Source: Phreatobacter sp.
GTDB taxonomy: Bacteria > Pseudomonadota > Alphaproteobacteria > Rhizobiales > Phreatobacteraceae
Length of the DNA: 64,000 nucleotides
Direction of reading: 5' to 3'
NCBI RefSeq assembly: GCF_030691135.1
Contig: NZ_JAUYFA010000031.1
Coordinates: 1 to 64,000, forward strand
Below the pieces are notes generated by a model. It was not told the origin of the DNA and searched no databases. It saw nothing but the letters and a program-made list of their open reading frames with translations. The position numbers and the translations under genes are program-made. Position 1 is the first letter of the stretch; every line of letters starts with the position of its first letter. Positions 6,314 through 37,139 of this stretch are shown here, piece by piece.

Positions 6314-6875
6314 GCCGTCTTGCTCGCCCGTTCTGGCTCGTGGGTTGCCCGGAACGGGCTCGGAGCACCGTCAAATCACGGCCCACGCGCCGCGACAAGA
6401 CCACACCCTCGGGACGCCGCGCCGCAAAACCTCGCCGGATCTGTGTGGAATTCCTGCGTCATCGCCGCCATTGCCGTCGATCTTTGACGCAGTGCGTCGA
6501 TATCCACCGCGGTTTGGAAGGAAGTCGTCGCTTCGAGAGCCGACGGAAGGGCAAAGATGGCCGCCCGGAACATCGCGATCTGTCGCTCGCAATCTTTTTT
6601 TGCCCTTCAAACCAGGCTGACTGCCATCGAGACTGCACCAACTCAGTTTGCGTCACCCTCGAAAATCTCCTAAAGACCCGTCCGGCTGCCGGATGGTATG
6701 GCGGGGCCGGGCTTTCTGCGAGACGACAGGTCCCTCCGACCGGTCCGGATTGCCGCACCCGCGCAGCGGAAGCCGATGCACTGATGACAAGGCCGCCGAC
6801 ACCGATGCACCCGACGCCATCCCACCGCCCTGTTCGACCTGAGCCGGCAGGCGTCGGCGCCATGGGGTGCGTCCG

Positions 6876-7670
6876 ATGAGCACCTGGTTGCGCGTGGCGG
6901 CTGCCGACCTCGACGCTTCGATCGCGCGTCGCGACCTCTGGATCCACCAGGGCTTCATCGACGTCATCAGGCGTTACCGGCGCACGGCGCTGGGGCCGCT
7001 CTGGCACACGCTGCACCTCGGCGCACTGATCCTGCTGCTCGGCTTCGTCTGGTCGGCGATCTTCAGGATCGATACGGCGGCCTATTTTCAAACCATCACG
7101 CCGACGCTGATCGTCTGGACCCTGATCGCCTCGATCATCGTGGAGGGCTGCGGCACCTTCGTCGCGGCGCAGTCCACCGCGCTGTCGATCCGGTTTCCCT
7201 ACACCGCCTTCATCTTCGCCCATCTGTGGCGGATGTTGCTGATCTTCGCACACCATCTCGTGCTGCTGGTCATCGTCTATCTGGTGCTCGGTGTGACCCC
7301 GTCCCTGACCCTTCTCTTGGTCATACCGGGCCTGTCACTGATCCTCATCAACGGCTTCTGGATCAGCCTGCTGCTCAGCATCCTGACGCTGAAGGCCCGC
7401 GACGTTCAGCAGATCGTCGCCAGCGGCATGCAGATCGCCCTGTTCGCGACGCCGGTCTTCTGGCCGCGCGACCTCCTCGGGCCACGCTTCGCTTTCCTCA
7501 TCGACTACAACCCGCTCTACCACCTGCTTCTGATCGGCCGTGATCCCTTCATCGGGCGGGCACCTCCCATCGAGTCCTGGCTCTGGGCTGGCGGCATGGC
7601 CGCGGTCGGCCTGACCGTCTCCCTCCTTGTGTTCGGTGCCGTGCGGCGCCGGCTCGCCTACTGGTACTGA
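6876..7670 (+). CDS. polysaccharide ABC transporter permease (Wzm-like, ABC-2)
   Basis: DLWIHQGFIDVIRRYRRTALGPLWHTLHLGALILLLGFVWSAIF N-terminus with multiple hydrophobic TMs; followed by Wzt-like ATPase. Confidence 0.9.
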   Translation: MSTWLRVAAADLDASIARRDLWIHQGFIDVIRRYRRTALGPLWHTLHLGALILLLGFVWSAIFRIDTAAYFQTITPTLIVWTLIASIIVEGCGTFVAAQSTALSIRFPYTAFIFAHLWRMLLIFAHHLVLLVIVYLVLGVTPSLTLLLVIPGLSLILINGFWISLLLSILTLKARDVQQIVASGMQIALFATPVFWPRDLLGPRFAFLIDYNPLYHLLLIGRDPFIGRAPPIESWLWAGGMAAVGLTVSLLVFGAVRRRLAYWY

Positions 7671-7673
7671 CCC

Positions 7674-8771
7674 ATGCCCCGGATCCGATTGCGCGACGCC
7701 ACCGTCGCATTCCCGGTCAAGCTCGCACCGCAAACGGCGGCGGCAGGCATCGGCCAGACCGGCGGCCGGATCGACGCCGCCACCCGCCAGATTGTCGCGC
7801 TGGACGGCATCACGCTCGACATTCCCTCGGGCAGCCGGATCGGGCTGATCGGTCACAATGGCGCCGGCAAGTCGACTTTGCTCCGGGTCCTCGCCGGGGT
7901 CTACGAGCCGATCAGCGGCGAGGCGGAGATCGACGGCACCATCGCCACCCTCTTCAACGCCACGCCCGGCCTGAACGTCGACAGCACCGGACGTGAAAAC
8001 ATCATCACCTGCGGCCTTCATCTCGGCCTCAGCCTGAAGGAGGTCCGGGCGCGTGCCGCCGAGATCGCCGAATTCACCGAACTCGGCGGCTATCTCGACC
8101 TTCCCGTGCGGATCTACTCCGCCGGCATGCTGATGCGGCTCGGCTTCGCCATCGCCACCTCGCTGGAGCCGGACATTCTTCTCATCGACGAAGGCCTCGG
8201 CACCGGCGATGCCGGTTTCACCGTCAAGGCCGAGACGCGGATGCGCGAACTGGCGGAGCGCGCCTCGATCCTCGTCGTCGCCTCCCATTCGATGGCGCTG
8301 CTCAATACCCTCTGCACCACCGGGATCGTCCTCGAACACGGCAAGATCGTCGCCATGGGGCCGATCGAGACCGTCCTCAGCGACTACCGCGCCAAGGTGG
8401 CCGCCGATGCCAGCACCGGCGACAAGAATGCCCGCCGCGCCGCCTATACGATGGCCCAGGAACTGGCCAATACCGGCCAGGAACTGCCTCCCGAACTGGA
8501 ACTGCAGGCGCTGATCGAGGCCTTCACGATCCGCCCCGACGACCTCTCCATGCTGCGGCGCTACCGCTCGCTGCTGGTCATGCTCGGCAAGCCGGTCGAG
8601 CCGGCGCTCGACCTGAAGATCGAGCAGGCCACCCTGCGGCTCACGCCGGAGGACAGCGAGGTCATCATGCGCATCCTGGTCCTTGTGAAAGCCCATGGTC
8701 TCAGCATCGACGAGGACATTCAGGCGATCCTCACCAACCGCCTCAGGGAACTGACTGGGGCGGACCGCTGA
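7674..8771 (+). CDS. polysaccharide ABC transporter ATP-binding protein (Wzt-like)
   Basis: Walker A GHNGAGKST, YSAGMLMRLGFAIATSLEPDILLIDEGLGTGD (signature/Walker B); about 100-aa C-terminal extension. Confidence 0.92.
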   Translation: MPRIRLRDATVAFPVKLAPQTAAAGIGQTGGRIDAATRQIVALDGITLDIPSGSRIGLIGHNGAGKSTLLRVLAGVYEPISGEAEIDGTIATLFNATPGLNVDSTGRENIITCGLHLGLSLKEVRARAAEIAEFTELGGYLDLPVRIYSAGMLMRLGFAIATSLEPDILLIDEGLGTGDAGFTVKAETRMRELAERASILVVASHSMALLNTLCTTGIVLEHGKIVAMGPIETVLSDYRAKVAADASTGDKNARRAAYTMAQELANTGQELPPELELQALIEAFTIRPDDLSMLRRYRSLLVMLGKPVEPALDLKIEQATLRLTPEDSEVIMRILVLVKAHGLSIDEDIQAILTNRLRELTGADR

Positions 8772-24148: not shown

Positions 24149-24797
24149 ATTCGTCAGCCTCGTCCACAAGTCGACGAAGCGTGACTACCTCGCGCGCGTC
24201 AACGAGATCGACAAGGCGGAGGTTGCCGAGAAGGCGATCCAGTTCGGGCAGGACTACTGGGACGGCAGCCGCCTCACCGGCTATGGCGGCTACAAGTACG
24301 ATGGCCGCTGGCGCAAGGTCGCCGACGCCATGATCGCCGCCTACGGCCTGAAGCCCGGTATGAAGGTGCTCGATGTCGGTTCGGGCAAGGGCTTCCTGCT
24401 GCACGACTTCAAGGAGGCGATGCCCGGCCTCGAGGTCGCCGGCATCGACATCTCCCCCTATGCCGTCGAGCACACCATGGAGAGCGTCAAGCCCTTCTGC
24501 CAGGTCGGCAGCGCCGCCAAGGTCCCCTGGGCGGACAACAGCTTCGATCTCGTCATCTCCATCAACACCCTGCACAACCTCTACAATTTCGATCTCCATG
24601 CTGCCCTGAAGGAGATGGAGCGCGTCAGTCGCGGCGGCAAATACATCTGCGTCGAGGGCTACCGCAACGAGAGCGAGAAGGTGAACCTGATGTACTGGCA
24701 GCTCACCTGCCGCATCTTCCACACGCCGGAAGAATGGGCCTTCGACTTCGCCCAGGCCGGCTATACCGGCGACCACGAGTTCATCTATTTCGAATGA
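24135..24797 (+). CDS. class I SAM-dependent methyltransferase
   Basis: MKVLDVGSGKGFLLHDFKEAMPGLEVAGIDISPYAVEHT, VPWADNSFDLVISINTLHNL. Confidence 0.93.
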   Translation: MAYREFVSLVHKSTKRDYLARVNEIDKAEVAEKAIQFGQDYWDGSRLTGYGGYKYDGRWRKVADAMIAAYGLKPGMKVLDVGSGKGFLLHDFKEAMPGLEVAGIDISPYAVEHTMESVKPFCQVGSAAKVPWADNSFDLVISINTLHNLYNFDLHAALKEMERVSRGGKYICVEGYRNESEKVNLMYWQLTCRIFHTPEEWAFDFAQAGYTGDHEFIYFE

Positions 24798-25408
24798 TCC
24801 CGCTGCTCGCCAACGGCTGCTGGGCCGAGATCAGGGGCGCCAGGGGGGCCGAGGCCCGGCCCTGCCTTTTCCTTGATCGCGACGGGGTCGTGATCGTCGA
24901 CCGCCATCACCTGGCCGACCCTGCCGGCGTTGAACTGGTGCCCGGCGCCGCGGCCCTTGTCGCCGCGGCCAACCGCTCGGGCTGGCTGGTCGGACTGGTC
25001 ACCAACCAGTCCGGCATCGGCCGCGGGCTGTTCGACTGGCAGGCCTTCGCCCGGGTCCAGGCCCGCGTGGAAGCGGAGTTGCAGGCAGGCGGTGCGGCGC
25101 TCGACTTCATCTGCGCCTGTCCCCATCACGCCGGCGGATTGGCCCCCTTCGACGTGGCCGATCATCCCTGGCGCAAACCCAATCCCGGCATGCTCCTGCA
25201 CGCCGCGACCGCGCTCGGCGTCGCCCTTCCCGCCTCCATCATGGTCGGTGACCGCGCCAGCGACATGGGAGCGGGAGCAGGCGCCGGGGTCGGCCATTGC
25301 TTCCTGATCGAAGGCATGAGCGACGAGGCGGCGACGGCCCGGGCGGCGGGTCTCGCCTTCCGGCCGTGCGACGGGCTGGACGAGGTCGAAAAGCTGCTCG
25401 TGGCCTAG
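24794..25408 (+). CDS. gmhB: D-glycero-manno-heptose 1,7-bisphosphate 7-phosphatase-like HAD-IIIA phosphatase
   Basis: CLFLDRDGVVIVDRHHLADPAGVELVPGA, LVTNQSGIGRGLFDWQAF, ICACPHH, KPNPGML, MVGDRASDMGAG. Confidence 0.85.
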   Translation: MIPLLANGCWAEIRGARGAEARPCLFLDRDGVVIVDRHHLADPAGVELVPGAAALVAAANRSGWLVGLVTNQSGIGRGLFDWQAFARVQARVEAELQAGGAALDFICACPHHAGGLAPFDVADHPWRKPNPGMLLHAATALGVALPASIMVGDRASDMGAGAGAGVGHCFLIEGMSDEAATARAAGLAFRPCDGLDEVEKLLVA

Positions 25409-26103
25409 GGCGCGGGCGGCCGGGCAAGCAGCGGGAAGCCCAGCCTGAGCTGGCCACAAGCCTCACCTCCGCGCGCCGCGGCGTCAGGAACAGCGCGCAC
25501 TCCGAAAGCGGGATCGATCAACAGGCCGCGGTCGGCGGTGCGCAAGGCGAGGAGATCGGGTTCGGCGGAAAAGATGGCCGCCGCAAGATCGAGGGCCATG
25601 GCGCGCTGAACCGGGCCGGGCGTCGCGTCGGCCCCTAGCGTTGGCGTTTGCAGTTCGGCGATCATGTTGGCCGAGCCCCGCAGCGCGAAGGCGGGACAGC
25701 TTTCCCTGTGCACGGCCCCCGTGCCGACGCAGGCGAGCTTGCCGGCCAGAGCGCGTCCGAAACGCGCGGCCGCCTCCCGGTCCACCGTCGGCCGGGCACA
25801 GGACGGACCGCTGTTGCCTGCCACGAGGGTGCGCGCTGGAAGCACGACCGCGAGGCCAAGCCGGTCGACATCTGCCTCGAACCCGTTGCGCGACAGTTCG
25901 CGCGCGAGATCATCGAGGAAACGCATCGCTTCTGCGCGACGCGCCAACTCTTCCGCCTGCTCCGACCGGCTCTGCGCAGTGTCACCCTGCTGCTGGGCAA
26001 AGAACATCTGTGCGGCGATGAGGATCAGCAGGATGAAGATCACGCCGACGACAAGGTCGAAGAAGGGCTTGAAGTCGATGACGTCGTCGTCTTCGGCCTT
26101 CAT
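25405..26103 (-). CDS. MotB/ExbD/ZorB-like membrane protein with degenerate OmpA-like C-terminal region
   Basis: MKAEDDDVIDFKPFFDLVVGVIFILLILIAAQMFFAQQQ: single N-terminal TM with Asp after PFF; C-terminal ALDLAAAIFSAEPDLLALRTADRGLLIDPAFGVRAVP...GQLRLGFPLL resembles the end of ZorB/OmpA-type domains. Confidence 0.7.
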   Translation of the reverse strand: MKAEDDDVIDFKPFFDLVVGVIFILLILIAAQMFFAQQQGDTAQSRSEQAEELARRAEAMRFLDDLARELSRNGFEADVDRLGLAVVLPARTLVAGNSGPSCARPTVDREAAARFGRALAGKLACVGTGAVHRESCPAFALRGSANMIAELQTPTLGADATPGPVQRAMALDLAAAIFSAEPDLLALRTADRGLLIDPAFGVRAVPDAAARGGEACGQLRLGFPLLARPPAP

Positions 26104-27008
26104 GGCACGGCCCGCTCTGACAGCACGCTCTCGAGCTTCGCGACAGCGGCACGCGTCGCGGCCAGTTCGGTGGTGAGGCTCATCAGTGCAGCGGACAGCT
26201 GCGCAATCCGCTGCTCTTCCGCCCATTCGGAGCGCGCCGGTCTCAGCGGTTGGAGGAACGCGTCGATTTCCGTGGCGAGCTCCGCAGCGGCCGTGCCGAG
26301 CGATTGCGCGCCGTAGCGATGCAGGAGGCTGATCATCAGCGCGCTAAGCAAGGCGGCGACTGAGGTCAGGAACTTGAATGCCGACGCATTGAGCAACTGC
26401 ACGATGGCCTGGCGCGCCTCACCCATATCTCCCGATCGGAAACCGCGCGCCGAGAAGTACAATGCGACGACAAGGCCGACGAAGGTCAGTATCAGACCGA
26501 CAGACGTATAGTACCCAGGAAGCCCAACGAGGAGAGCCGTCTTCGCTTGCACCCCGACAGCACTCTGCGTCTCTACGACGGTAGCAAAACGGCGCTCGGG
26601 AATGCGCTTGCGTTCGACCACATCGGCGGCGAAGACAGTCCAGGCCGGCAGCAGTGCGTCATGCCGCTTGAGAACGCCATGGATGCGTTCGCAGGCCTTC
26701 AGCCAGTCGCCGGGGCCGGCTTTGCGCAGGGCCTCGATCTCGCGTCGGGCGCGGCGCATGCCGGTCAGTTGCGGAACGAGGACCCTGCTCGTGAACCAGC
26801 CGATGATCGACAAGGCCGAGAGGAAGACAAGGGCCGACGCGACATAGGCGAAGGATGGCTGGTTGATCAGGTTGACGAGCGGAACGACGACCGGACGCAG
26901 CAGTTGCGTCGCGAACTCGCCGATCGGGTCGAGAGCGCCTTGGGTCTGGCCCAAAGCGATGAGTGCCACCAGGAGCAGCACAAGCACAGTCGACAGGATG
27001 ATGGTCAT
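26100..27008 (-). CDS. MotA/TolQ/ExbB/ZorA-like proton channel protein
   Basis: TVVETQSAVGVQAKTALLVGLPGYYTSVGLILTFVGLVVALYFSARGF...AFKFLTSVAALLSALMISLLHRYGAQSLGTAAAELATEIDAFLQ; ATGA overlap with downstream partner. Confidence 0.75.
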   Translation of the reverse strand: MTIILSTVLVLLLVALIALGQTQGALDPIGEFATQLLRPVVVPLVNLINQPSFAYVASALVFLSALSIIGWFTSRVLVPQLTGMRRARREIEALRKAGPGDWLKACERIHGVLKRHDALLPAWTVFAADVVERKRIPERRFATVVETQSAVGVQAKTALLVGLPGYYTSVGLILTFVGLVVALYFSARGFRSGDMGEARQAIVQLLNASAFKFLTSVAALLSALMISLLHRYGAQSLGTAAAELATEIDAFLQPLRPARSEWAEEQRIAQLSAALMSLTTELAATRAAVAKLESVLSERAVP

Positions 27009-27046
27009 GGTGCCGTTCTCCCTATCCAGCGCTCAGATCCCGCCTA

Positions 27047-27880
27047 TCACCAGGCCACGGCGCCGCTGGTCCAGAAACCATAGGCGTAGCAGTCGACCGG
27101 ACTGGCGCTGCGGACGGGGTCGACCAGTTCCGGCTTGTCGAGCCTCACGATGAAGCAATCACCCGACTGGTGGAGGACGAGCTTGTAGTCGAGCCGGCTG
27201 CCCCGGTACAGCAGCCGATCCTTCGGCCCCTCCATCTGCCCGAGCCGCGTCTTCAGCGGCGGGATGGCTTCGGCAACCGCCGCAAAGGAATTCCAGGCAT
27301 CGGCTGTCGTCGGGAAAGTGCCGGTGTTGCGCCGGTATTCCTCGACGGCGTCGCGAATGGACTGCACCATCTGCACGTTCTTTTCGCTCTGCGCACGACC
27401 CTCGCGATAATGGTCTTCGACCACCACCGCGGCGCTGCGCGTGACGCTCTGGAACGCGAACAATGCACCGGCACCAAGGCAGAGGCCGAGGAGCAAGGCC
27501 AGCGCCGGGATCACGACCCCATCCCGCCGTGCCGCCGGGGCGGCCTCCGGCGCGCGCGGCACGCCCGGTCGCACCATGGCGGGATCGCCCTTCTCCTTCC
27601 ACGCGCCGGCGTAAGCGTCGCCGGAGCCGGCCGAAACCTGGTTCGGCGCCCGTGCAGAACCCGCGGATGCATATGGCTGACCAACATCCTGCTCGGCCTC
27701 GAACTGGCCGATCGCCGCTTCGAGTTCGTCCCGATAGCGCTGTGACTGCCGGCCTTGAGGGTCGCCCTCGATCGAAGACGCGAACTTGTCGACCCGCGCC
27801 CGAAGGGCGCCATAGAGTGCGCGCCGCTCATCGGGTGATGCGCCGTTCGCGTGGTCACGCAAGAGCTGGATGAAGTCCAT
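27047..27880 (-). CDS. single-TM protein with pseudopilin-like C-terminal domain
   Basis: Internal TM VVIPALALLLGLCLGAGALFAFQSV; then VQSIRDAVEEYRRNTGTFPTTADAW...KDRLLYRGSRLDYKLVLHQSGDCFIV resembling GspG-type C-termini. Confidence 0.65.
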   Translation of the reverse strand: MDFIQLLRDHANGASPDERRALYGALRARVDKFASSIEGDPQGRQSQRYRDELEAAIGQFEAEQDVGQPYASAGSARAPNQVSAGSGDAYAGAWKEKGDPAMVRPGVPRAPEAAPAARRDGVVIPALALLLGLCLGAGALFAFQSVTRSAAVVVEDHYREGRAQSEKNVQMVQSIRDAVEEYRRNTGTFPTTADAWNSFAAVAEAIPPLKTRLGQMEGPKDRLLYRGSRLDYKLVLHQSGDCFIVRLDKPELVDPVRSASPVDCYAYGFWTSGAVAW

Positions 27881-28024
27881 GCCTGGTTATGTCCGGTTCC
27901 AGCAAAGCTGACACAGTAGGATAGGGGAGCAGCAGAGGACGGCGCCAGCCTGCCCTCGCGTGATCATGATATACACGGCAGCTTGCCTGACAATGCGCGC
28001 AAGAGCCATCGCCAACACGGCCGA

Positions 28025-28738
28025 TCAGGCCGTGACCGGCTTCGGAAACTCGACATGCGCGCGCGCCAGACTGTCGAGATTGCCGATATCGCGATGATAA
28101 CCGGCGGTCTCATGGGCGAGGATTCGACCGACGAACCGAGGAATGACTTCAGTCGACAGGTCGACGAAGGGCTTGCCCAGTTGCGCCGCGGCCTCGGTCA
28201 CCTCCGGCTCGATGATATAGACGGCGGCGTTGGCGAGGTTGCCGGGCGGGTTCTCCACCTTCTCATGGAACGCCTGCACCAGATGCATGTCGTCCAGCTC
28301 GAGAATGCCGCAGGAGCGGGGATCGTCGGTGCGGAAGGCCAGCATGGTCATGGCCGCCCCGGGGGGGCGCCGCGCATGGGCCGACTGGAAGGCAGCGACG
28401 TCGAAGGTCGTCAGATTGTCGGCATGGGCCAGCAGGACGGGACCGGACCCCAGCGCGATGCGATTCGCCACCAGCGTGCCGCCCGTCCCCAGAAGCTCGG
28501 GTTCATGCACCAGCGTCACCCGGTCACGCCACGGTGACGCTGCCACATGGCGCTCGACCACGTCGGAGAGGTAATGCGTGTTGACGACCGCATGGCTGAT
28601 CGCATCGTCGCGAAAGATCAGGTCGAGCCAGTAATCCATCAGCGGACGGCCGTGGATCGGCACCAGGCATTTCGGCACGGTGTCGGTAAGCGGCCTCAGA
28701 CGGGTTCCGAACCCGGCCGCCAGCAGCAGCGCGCGCAT
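28025..28738 (-). CDS. sugar-phosphate nucleotidyltransferase (HddC/mannose-1-P guanylyltransferase-like)
   Basis: MRALLLAAGFGTRLRPLTDTVPKCLVPIHGRPLMDYWLD. Confidence 0.9.
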   Translation of the reverse strand: MRALLLAAGFGTRLRPLTDTVPKCLVPIHGRPLMDYWLDLIFRDDAISHAVVNTHYLSDVVERHVAASPWRDRVTLVHEPELLGTGGTLVANRIALGSGPVLLAHADNLTTFDVAAFQSAHARRPPGAAMTMLAFRTDDPRSCGILELDDMHLVQAFHEKVENPPGNLANAAVYIIEPEVTEAAAQLGKPFVDLSTEVIPRFVGRILAHETAGYHRDIGNLDSLARAHVEFPKPVTA

Positions 28739-28740
28739 GT

Positions 28741-30255
28741 TCAGGTCCTCCGCTCGCGCAGTTCACCCATCACTTCCTGATGCTGGATGGGCAGATTGCC
28801 GACCCGCGACACCTGGATGGCGGCCGCGATCGATCCGAGATAGCTCGAACGCCAGATGTCGACTCCGGCGCACAGCGCCATCGACATGCAGGTGAAGAGG
28901 GAATCGCCCGCGCCGGCCACGTCCTTGGGGTTGTTGTTGAATGCCGGGAGCCGGTCGAGCCGCTCCTCGCCCTGTTTTTCGCCGAGCACGATCATGCCTT
29001 CGGCGCCGAGCGTCACCACCACATTGACGGCGCGGGCCTTGTCCCGGAGCCGGGAGGCCACGACGGCGATGCCGGCTTCGGCATCCTGCACATGAAGGGC
29101 GAGCCTGGCCTCGCGCTCGGTCGGCGTGACCAACTGCATCCCCCGGAAACGGGAAATGTCAGCCATCTGGGACGAGGCCTGGCTGTCCGCCGACATCGGC
29201 ACCTTGCGGGCCTGCGCGGCCTCGGCCACCGCATCGACCAGCGGCTGCGGCAGGCAGCCATAGTTGAAGTCGGAGAACAGGATCAGGTCCGTATGCTTGA
29301 TGCGGGATTTGATCCAGCGCAGCATTTTCGACTGCAGTTCCTGCTCCACCGCATGCTGGCGCAGGTCATTGACCCGCAGCAGGGTCTTGCCGTTGGCCCG
29401 GTAGCGGGCCTTGACAGTCGTCGGACGCGTCCGATCCACCATGACGCTGGCGTTGACGTTGTAGCGCGCCAGATTTTCGCGGGCATAGGCCGCATGCCGG
29501 TCGTGCCCCGCGACGGTCAGGAACTCGACCTCTGCCCCGAGGCCGCGTGCATGGGCCGAAACAATCCCGGCGCCGCCGACGAAGGTCTTCTTGTTGATCG
29601 GCGTCACCACGATGGTGGGGTCTTCCTGCGACATGCCCAGGGGCTCGCAGTTGACGTATTCGTCGATGATCAGATCGCCGATCACCAGGACACGCATTCC
29701 GGCAAACTGCGGCAGGATTTTCGCCAGATCGCCGATCCGGAAACCATGGCGCTCCGGGAAGTCGGTCGGCCGCTGGATGTTGGGCCGGTCATTGCCGGCG
29801 AACTCCTTGGCGATCAGGTCGTCCGTGGAGAAGCGCAGCTCGCCGGCGCTGAACAGCAGCTTGCCGCCATAGCCATCAAGGACCGCTTCTTCGGGATTGT
29901 ACTCCGTCGCGAACTCCTTGCCCTTCACCACCAGGTCGGGCCGGAGCCGGTCGATGAAGCGGCTCGCATCCTCGCGCATCTCGACGGCGTGGTGGACATA
30001 GGAGATCGCGTTCAGGGCCTCGAGCCTGAGAGCCATCGGCACGGTCACACCCTGGGCGCCGTCGGGCTTCAGGCCGATCACCAGCGTGTCGCAGGCCTCG
30101 GCAGCGAATTTGAGCACGCGCATGTGGCCGGCATGGATGACGTTGAAATTGCCGGAGATGAAACCGATGCGCTTGTGCGGGCCGACCTGCTGGCGGATCT
30201 GCTCGGGCGTGAGCGCGGGATCGCTGGCCGAGTCGAGGTTACGCAAATGGGCCAT
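28741..30255 (-). CDS. bifunctional cytidylyltransferase-type nucleotidyltransferase + PfkB carbohydrate kinase (HldE-like, reversed domain order)
   Basis: N-terminal IGFISGNFNVIHAGHMRVLKFA (GxFxxxHxGH-type), C-terminal VLVIGDLIIDEYV...VGGAGIVSAHARGLGA...DVAGAGDSLFTCMSMAL (PfkB/RfaE1). Confidence 0.88.
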   Translation of the reverse strand: MAHLRNLDSASDPALTPEQIRQQVGPHKRIGFISGNFNVIHAGHMRVLKFAAEACDTLVIGLKPDGAQGVTVPMALRLEALNAISYVHHAVEMREDASRFIDRLRPDLVVKGKEFATEYNPEEAVLDGYGGKLLFSAGELRFSTDDLIAKEFAGNDRPNIQRPTDFPERHGFRIGDLAKILPQFAGMRVLVIGDLIIDEYVNCEPLGMSQEDPTIVVTPINKKTFVGGAGIVSAHARGLGAEVEFLTVAGHDRHAAYARENLARYNVNASVMVDRTRPTTVKARYRANGKTLLRVNDLRQHAVEQELQSKMLRWIKSRIKHTDLILFSDFNYGCLPQPLVDAVAEAAQARKVPMSADSQASSQMADISRFRGMQLVTPTEREARLALHVQDAEAGIAVVASRLRDKARAVNVVVTLGAEGMIVLGEKQGEERLDRLPAFNNNPKDVAGAGDSLFTCMSMALCAGVDIWRSSYLGSIAAAIQVSRVGNLPIQHQEVMGELRERRT

Positions 30256-35804: not shown

Positions 35805-37139
35805 TCAGGGCCTGGCGGGGACACCGAGGAACGGGCGGCTGAAGGAAGTGATCCCGACCTGCGCCTGATGCGCGGCAACCACCAGAACGAGGTAACCGGT
35901 GGCGAAGACCGTGTTGGTCTGGTCGTGGCTGAACAGGAGGTTGGTCAGGCCGAAGATCGCATAACTCCCCGACAGCAGCACCGCGAAGGCCCAGCGCTCA
36001 CGCTGACGCCCGTCCCGCGGCGCCTGTCCGACGATGATGAGCGGCGCGACCAGCAGCAGCACCAGGGCGAGAAGGCCGACGATGCCGCGGCCGACCGCCA
36101 CCGAGATGAACTCGTTGTGGAGATGGCGATAGGCCGGAATGGCGATCCCGGCGCGCGCGGCCCGCGCCCGCACCTCCGCCACGGCGTTCTGGCTGCCGTA
36201 GCCGACGAAGGGGCGATCGAGGAAGGCATCGAACCCATGGGTCCACAGCATGACCCGATGGGCCGTCGAGGGGTCGCGGTCGACGCCGAGGGTCTCGCTC
36301 TGCAGGGCCTGGCGCACCTCTTCGACGCGCTCCGGCACCTTCAGGGCAATCGCGAAGACCGCGAGCCCGGCGGCGAGAACCGAGGCCACCAGCACAGTCT
36401 GCCCGATCCGCACCCGGATCAACGGCCAGACATGAACCACGACCACGACGGCGACCAGCGGCAGCGCCAGCAGCGCGCCACGCGTCTGCGACAGGAAGCT
36501 GCCGCCGATGCCGCAGACGAGCGCAGCGAAAGCGAAAGCCTTCATCGCCGGCGACAGGCGGGTAAACCCGACCATCGACAGTCCGGCCGCGAGGATGGCC
36601 GTGCCCCCGAAGGGAATGGCGTTCGCCATTCCGGCGGTGGCGCGCGGGTGGCCGAGGAGGAAAACCTGCACCAGCGCGAGGCAGAAGGAGACGATGGCGG
36701 CGGCGCGGACCCCGTTCAGGAAGAGATCGAAGACATCGACCTTCGGCGTCTGCACGAGGGTGCCGACCAGGACGGTCAGCGCGAGGAAATGCATCGCGGT
36801 GCCCACATCAAGCCAACCCGCGGCCTTGTTGGCGAAGGCGAGCGGCGAGATCATCGTCACGAAGAAATAGCCGAGGGCGACGAGGCAAGCGAAGGCCGTC
36901 GTCGGCGGCCAGACCCAGGAGATGCGGCGGCCAAGAAAGATCAGGCCGATATAGATGCACGCCCCGAAATAGAAGAAGGTCGCGACGCTGCCGAGGGTCA
37001 GCGGCAGGAAGGCGAGCACCGGAATATAGAGATAGGCGATGCGGTTCGGGTCGTCGATCGTCGCCCGGATCCAGGCCCAGGCGGCAGCGACCAGTCCCCG
37101 TCGCGGCGAGGTGTTCGGCGGACCTTCCATTGAACTCAT
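35805..37139 (-). CDS. O-antigen ligase / Wzy-family polytopic membrane protein
   Basis: Polytopic; large loop and TMs with FLSQTRGALLALPL, HGFDAFLDRPFVGYGSQNAV, HLHNEFISVAVGRGIVGLLALVLLL. Confidence 0.9.
   Translation of the reverse strand: MSSMEGPPNTSPRRGLVAAAWAWIRATIDDPNRIAYLYIPVLAFLPLTLGSVATFFYFGACIYIGLIFLGRRISWVWPPTTAFACLVALGYFFVTMISPLAFANKAAGWLDVGTAMHFLALTVLVGTLVQTPKVDVFDLFLNGVRAAAIVSFCLALVQVFLLGHPRATAGMANAIPFGGTAILAAGLSMVGFTRLSPAMKAFAFAALVCGIGGSFLSQTRGALLALPLVAVVVVVHVWPLIRVRIGQTVLVASVLAAGLAVFAIALKVPERVEEVRQALQSETLGVDRDPSTAHRVMLWTHGFDAFLDRPFVGYGSQNAVAEVRARAARAGIAIPAYRHLHNEFISVAVGRGIVGLLALVLLLVAPLIIVGQAPRDGRQRERWAFAVLLSGSYAIFGLTNLLFSHDQTNTVFATGYLVLVVAAHQAQVGITSFSRPFLGVPARP

Follow-up and report, generated by a model that had tools for sequence, protein, structure and literature searches.

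Does an ion-driven motor take part in the export or assembly of lipopolysaccharide (LPS)-type polysaccharides in some bacteria? The question is raised by a 64,000-nucleotide stretch of the genome of Phreatobacter sp. (contig NZ_JAUYFA010000031.1, positions 1 to 64,000; hereafter, the window), where, within a heptose/O-antigen locus, three consecutive genes on the minus strand encode a 277-amino-acid (aa) bitopic protein (gene 1, 27880-27047), a short ZorA-type motor subunit of 302 aa with about four transmembrane (TM) helices and no long cytoplasmic tail (gene 2, hereafter zorA', 27008-26100), and a short ZorB-type motor subunit of 232 aa with one TM helix and a periplasmic OmpA/MotB-like domain (gene 3, hereafter zorB', 26103-25405). 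Known ion-driven motors with the 5:2 architecture power flagella, the Ton and Tol systems, gliding, type 9 secretion and Zorya defense. An initial annotation, made from the sequence alone, described the three genes as a stator-like module with a pseudopilin-like component; when the open reading frames (ORFs) were re-read, all three, along with the ATGA overlap of genes 2 and 3 and the helices quoted in that annotation, were found to be present. Gene 1 is separated from gene 2 by 38 bp.

A motor pair of the ZorAB lineage

The assignment of genes 2 and 3 to a ZorAB-type motor pair, related to ZorA and ZorB of the Zorya anti-phage system, is well supported. ZorA' matches the PADLOC profile ZorA1 (1.7e-23) and the NCBIfam profile antiphage_ZorA_1 (7.4e-22, 77 bits against a cut-off of 190 bits), the match covering only the N-terminal ~200 of the 600-700 ZorA profile positions, that is, the motor part; a profile of six short ZorA proteins (A4), in turn, matches the solved ZorA chains (8vvn at 6e-13, and also 8qyh, 8qyy, 8qyk and 8qyd). 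ZorB' matches the ZorB1 profile at 2.8e-6, and the top PDB matches of its AlphaFold2 model (predicted local distance difference test score, pLDDT, 85) are ZorB of 8vvn, 8qyd and 8vvi, followed by MotB/OmpA-like domains. The proteins encoded by the three genes matched neither Pfam MotA_ExbB nor ExbD at E <= 1. The residue proposed in the initial annotation as the conducting aspartate, D16 of ZorB' (codon 26056..26058, minus strand), aligns with the ion-carrying Asp, and because it is invariant in 26/26 aligned ZorB-type proteins, this alignment is more than chance. The early view of the two genes as a MotA/ExbB/ZorA-type and MotB/ZorB-type pair with an intact channel Asp is borne out by these profile matches and by this invariance. 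In the partner subunit, the channel residues T175 (codon 26484..26486, minus strand) and S216 are present in 36/36 aligned ZorA proteins, and T215, which directly precedes S216 (codons of both, 26361..26366, minus strand), in 7/7 short and 20/29 long ZorA. In the alignment, the Thr-Ser at 215-216 is also present in the Na+-bound Shewanella ZorA (PMC11890865), which hints at possible Na+ use by ZorA'.

With the Zorya type I ZorAB complex (8vvn, 8qyd), the pair shares the ZorA motor domain, the channel Thr and Ser, the TM Asp of ZorB, the Cys pair and OmpA-like fold of the ZorB periplasmic domain, and the zorA-zorB gene order, but it lacks the long tail, a complete set of peptidoglycan-binding residues and ZorC, and is encoded in polysaccharide loci rather than in loci of the zorABC type. 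The long cytoplasmic tail is absent in all seven loci of the short-ZorA group described below, zorB' starting right at the end of zorA' (about 74 aa follow the last TM helix of the window ZorA'); in Zorya I, deletion of the ZorA tail abolishes defense (PMC11890865). The full set of peptidoglycan-binding residues, scored as the equivalents of H186, T187, D188, R203, R254 and R259, is found in 0/7 short ZorB' versus 19/19 Zorya ZorB, all 19 of which carry GHTD, LSxxR and NRRIDxRF; among the short proteins, none has the Asp of GHTD (0/7) or the NRR triplet (0/7), and single positions, such as the Arg of LSxxR, survive in up to three of the seven. Residues H186, L199, R203, R254 and R259 of Zorya I ZorB are needed for peptidoglycan binding and defense (PMC11890865). 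ZorC adjoins ZorAB in 27 of the 28 long loci and in none of the seven short ones; consistent with its absence from the initial annotation, ZorC was undetected in five short-pair genomes searched whole (the window genome and four others) and was detected in two positive-control genomes. Neither ZorD nor ZorE was seen on reading of the neighborhood, although no dedicated search was made. Judged by sequence, the pair clearly belongs to the ZorAB motor lineage but is not a Zorya system, because the tail, the peptidoglycan-binding residues and ZorC are all missing. Such pairs could be scored as partial Zorya systems by defense finders that rely on profiles. The MotAB flagellar stator shares with the pair the general A/B architecture and a periplasmic OmpA-like domain in the B subunit, but the peptidoglycan motif is lost in the pair and its fold matches to MotB are weaker than those to ZorB; no flagellar genes are present among the window ORFs read.

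The short ZorA proteins come from seven loci, all in Rhizobiales, and are set apart from full-length ZorA by profile score; in length, they range from 274 to 302 aa, compared with 469-763 aa for the long ZorA. Beside the window, the group comprises L053 (Rhizobiales bacterium YIM 77505, 45% identity), L054 (a Rhizobiaceae metagenome-assembled genome (MAG), same place as G845), L055/L102 (Rhizobiaceae MAG, G860), L056 (Rhizobiales AFS080716), L032/L057 (Mesorhizobium loti LU, G266) and L104 (G983). The gap in score is wide: among 398 genomes of the G266 family, four short members were recovered at E <= 4.2e-100, and the 18 other ZorA-type matches at E >= 3.4e-35. The phylogenetic tree recovers a supported group (98/94) made up of the seven short members and a single tailed ZorA, L074. 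A single origin of taillessness could not be adopted as a conclusion: the best tree places the tailed L074 beside the window and L053, yet a single clade of short members is not rejected (approximately unbiased (AU) test, p = 0.235), which leaves one or two losses. On the evidence of the tree, the tail may have been lost once or twice, or else gained in L074. The pair is lacking from eleven other genomes placed in the genus of the window; a Zorya-type ZorA is present in one of these. Outside the order, no additional protein scored with the short group in the genomes sampled from the class and the phylum, and a plasmid search with the Mesorhizobium ZorA' gave no match.

The class and phylum samples also contain a few short ORFs whose match to the short ZorA model is partial. 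ORFs of about 300-380 aa that match only its C-terminal half (G1204:C24:153391-153702, G1219:C114:111885-112172, G1243:C96:2698-2991 and G1265:C240:6043-6339) are possibly another tailless group. Several families in the phylum sample (e.g., L125, L128, L132, L133 and L136) have two to four proteins with the ZorA motor domain per genome, in very long open frames of about 1000 to over 4500 aa. A different kind of short protein is found at L033:923-1810, a ZorA stump of 295 aa that is almost identical to its full-length counterpart in the congener L120. No ZorB was seen adjoining it, and helicase, HNH and methyltransferase genes occur in the region; this is probably a truncated Zorya.

The polysaccharide neighborhood

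O-antigen or other surface-polysaccharide genes surround 6/7 short pairs, and a polysaccharide marker gene is present in 0/28 long-ZorA loci (Fisher p = 4.3e-6); when the congeneric L054 and L104 are counted once, 5/6 short pairs (p = 2.2e-5). The link to surface polysaccharide, which was offered as a possibility when the window was first read, recurs in five of the six other loci, in different gene arrangements. In L053, the order is rmlBDAC-zorA'B'-cysDN; in L032, rml genes and an acyltransferase are found around the pair; in L054 and L104, glycosyltransferases flank it on both sides; and in L055/L102, it is accompanied by a CapD-like dehydratase, glycosyltransferases and an O-antigen ligase-like protein. 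It is this gene context that suggests a role of the pair in surface polysaccharide biology. A search of the open-licence literature returned no account of a ZorAB-type motor in an O-antigen locus.

Genes for sulfate activation share loci with the short pair in two lineages, namely, cysD and cysN at L053:9523-12323 and cysD at L102:718-1755. The polysaccharides of L053 and L102 may be sulfated.

What the motor might do

We consider it moderately probable that genes 2 and 3 form an ion-driven rotary motor of the ZorAB lineage that has split from anti-phage defense and serves the export, assembly or modification of surface polysaccharide of the O-antigen/LPS type. Structures were predicted for monomers, and it is from homology to ZorAB that the assembly would, presumably, comprise five ZorA' subunits around two ZorB'. 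Ion flow past D16 of ZorB' and the ring of T175, T215 and S216 of ZorA' would then turn or gate the complex. Without the cytoplasmic rod, such a motor could not deliver the Zorya output, directed towards ZorC and ZorD; with its peptidoglycan-binding residues lost, ZorB' would no longer grip the cell wall through its periplasmic domain, which would instead bind or move another envelope partner, likely a component of the apparatus for the export, packing or modification of surface polysaccharide. A working precedent, and only that, is the Myxococcus AglR/Q/S motor, which drives the Nfs complex that winds the spore-coat polysaccharide (PMC12288465): the two have in common a stator-type, ion-driven motor acting on surface polysaccharide, but the closest relatives of the pair are ZorA and ZorB. 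A related evolutionary scenario, in which the loss of both the cytoplasmic signaling rod and the grip on the cell wall turned a defense motor, on one or two occasions, into a motor dedicated to surface polysaccharide, seems plausible rather than likely. If true, a tailless ZorAB motor without a peptidoglycan anchor, recurring in O-antigen loci, would show how motors move between defense and envelope building, and would represent a new class of ion-driven machines that pull, gate or modify O-antigen-type polymers in Gram-negative bacteria.

The pair is under purifying selection, as indicated by the low ratios of nonsynonymous to synonymous substitution rates (dN/dS) between the congeneric L054 and L104 (0.08-0.14 for zorA', 0.11 for zorB' and 0.09 for a neighboring glycosyltransferase), although dS in this comparison is near saturation, and this is one of several points that weigh against the polysaccharide role. 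One of the seven loci, L056, lacks polysaccharide genes over a distance of about 6-8 kb. The polysaccharide markers were chosen from the very loci that hold the short pairs, so that the positive count is partly circular; when the markers of each locus were left out in turn, the matches stayed for the window, L032, L053, L102 and L104, but not for L054. No single partner gene is common to all the loci, and O-antigen loci are variable regions, in which unrelated genes accumulate as well. Moreover, a related heptose/O-antigen locus, L150 (G011:C1:486500-505500), in a 7.4 Mb genome placed in the genus of the window, has hldE-hddC but none of the three genes; the pathway, therefore, can run without them, and the trio is an accessory module.

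The main rival interpretation, unlikely in our assessment, takes the pair for a defense device, a Zorya-derived envelope sensor or motor that would protect against phage, perhaps by altering O-antigen display or membrane potential. Its location would make sense given that phages bind O-antigen and that the locus is often exchanged, and it is in accord with the exclusively Zorya affinity of the nearest relatives of the pair and with the polymorphism of O-antigen loci, as in L150; however, the pair lacks ZorC as well as the tail and peptidoglycan binding, the last two of which are required by Zorya (PMC11890865), and a reading of the ORFs in the six loci with polysaccharide genes brought no other defense genes to notice. 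Alternatively, ZorA' and ZorB' could be an energizer resembling the Ton/Tol type, which would supply energy, for outer-membrane transport or for the stability of the envelope, to a periplasm-spanning partner whose gene lies elsewhere, such that the polysaccharide neighborhood would reflect envelope biology in general. The compactness of the stator, with its short cytoplasmic part, a one-TM B subunit with the Asp and no peptidoglycan anchor, is indeed that of ExbBD/TolQR-type motors, and generic ion transporters are diverse (PMC12505986), but no TonB/TolA-like gene was seen adjoining the pairs, Pfam MotA_ExbB and ExbD go unmatched, the B subunit is ZorB/OmpA-like, and the closest solved structures are all ZorA/ZorB, which makes this energizer a rather improbable alternative. 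The possibility that the pair is a functionless, decaying remnant of Zorya appears negligible: truncated Zorya pieces do exist, such as the L033 stump that adjoins no visible ZorB, but here both genes are intact in seven genomes, including the channel residues, dN/dS between the congeners is low, and the short group is deep and separate in score. On the strength of the intact genes, the retained channel residues and the low dN/dS, we rejected decay.

The same weighing applies to gene 1, which the initial annotation joined to the pair as a pseudopilin-like third component of a single module. We deem it very improbable that the three genes form one machine with a pseudopilin as its essential third part. 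Gene 1 is co-directional with the pair, lies just upstream of it and encodes a bitopic protein with weak matches to pilin-related profiles, but these fall below the cut-offs (Pfam T2SSG, E = 0.047, 14.2 bits against 21; GspG, 12 bits against 88.85), and a PDB fold search gave no significant match; the AlphaFold2 model of the protein is poor and of low confidence (pLDDT 57). The protein has a cytoplasmic, helical N-terminal part, a TM segment at ~122-146 and a periplasmic C-terminal domain (166-277), so that the TM segment follows a long cytoplasmic part and not, as in a prepilin, directly a short N-terminal leader. The pseudopilin assignment was rejected on the sub-threshold profiles and the lack of a significant fold match. 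Residues 166-277 are better matched by the C-terminal end of proteins of ~500 aa whose genes adjoin that of an MBOAT acyltransferase (E to 1e-14, 39% identity). The co-occurrence of the third gene with the other two in related genomes, on which the initial annotation had staked the module, was not observed: no relative of gene 1 is found beside the pair in the six other loci, or anywhere in those genomes (best E = 0.18), and on this ground, the three-gene module was ruled out. Gene 1 is an accessory that is not conserved with the pair. Returning to the proposed polysaccharide motor, the product of gene 1, which shares its periplasmic domain with the protein partnering a membrane O-acyltransferase, is a candidate for a local coupling protein in this genome.

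The MBOAT acyltransferase and its ~500-aa partner, which has no Pfam match and shares its last ~110 residues with gene 1, were observed at L049:6534-9447 and L050:4078-7051. Read by eye, the partner is AlgJ/DltD-like; the homology with gene 1 is confined to the C-terminal ~110 residues, whereas gene 1 lacks the large N-terminal part of the partner and has a cytoplasmic domain and a TM segment of its own.

Other genes of the window locus

Next upstream of gene 1 and co-directional with it is a gene for an HddC-like sugar-1-phosphate nucleotidylyltransferase (28025..28738, minus strand), a member of the nucleotidyltransferase family that scores 53 bits with the HddC equivalog against a cut-off of 300, followed by an HldE/RfaE-like heptose-7-phosphate kinase and nucleotidyltransferase (28741..30255, minus strand; TIGR02198 at 1.1e-60 and TIGR02199 at 8e-17, both under the equivalog cut-offs). 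Convergent with zorB' is a GmhB-like heptose bisphosphate phosphatase gene (24734..25408, plus strand; PRK08942 at 8e-36, under the cut-off). As several of the polysaccharide enzymes in the window fall under NCBIfam equivalog cut-offs, their substrate names are tentative. The same O-antigen locus encodes a Wzm/Wzt-type ABC exporter (6867..8771, plus strand; ABC2_membrane and ABC_tran) and an O-antigen ligase-like protein (35805..37139, minus strand; Wzy_C), along with a GmhA-like enzyme, epimerases, methyltransferases, a GT4-type initiating transferase and a mannose-1-phosphate guanylyltransferase. A weak candidate for a sigma-70-like promoter lies 5' of gene 1 (27966..27993, minus strand), with 10/12 positions matching and one such site found against 0.4 expected.

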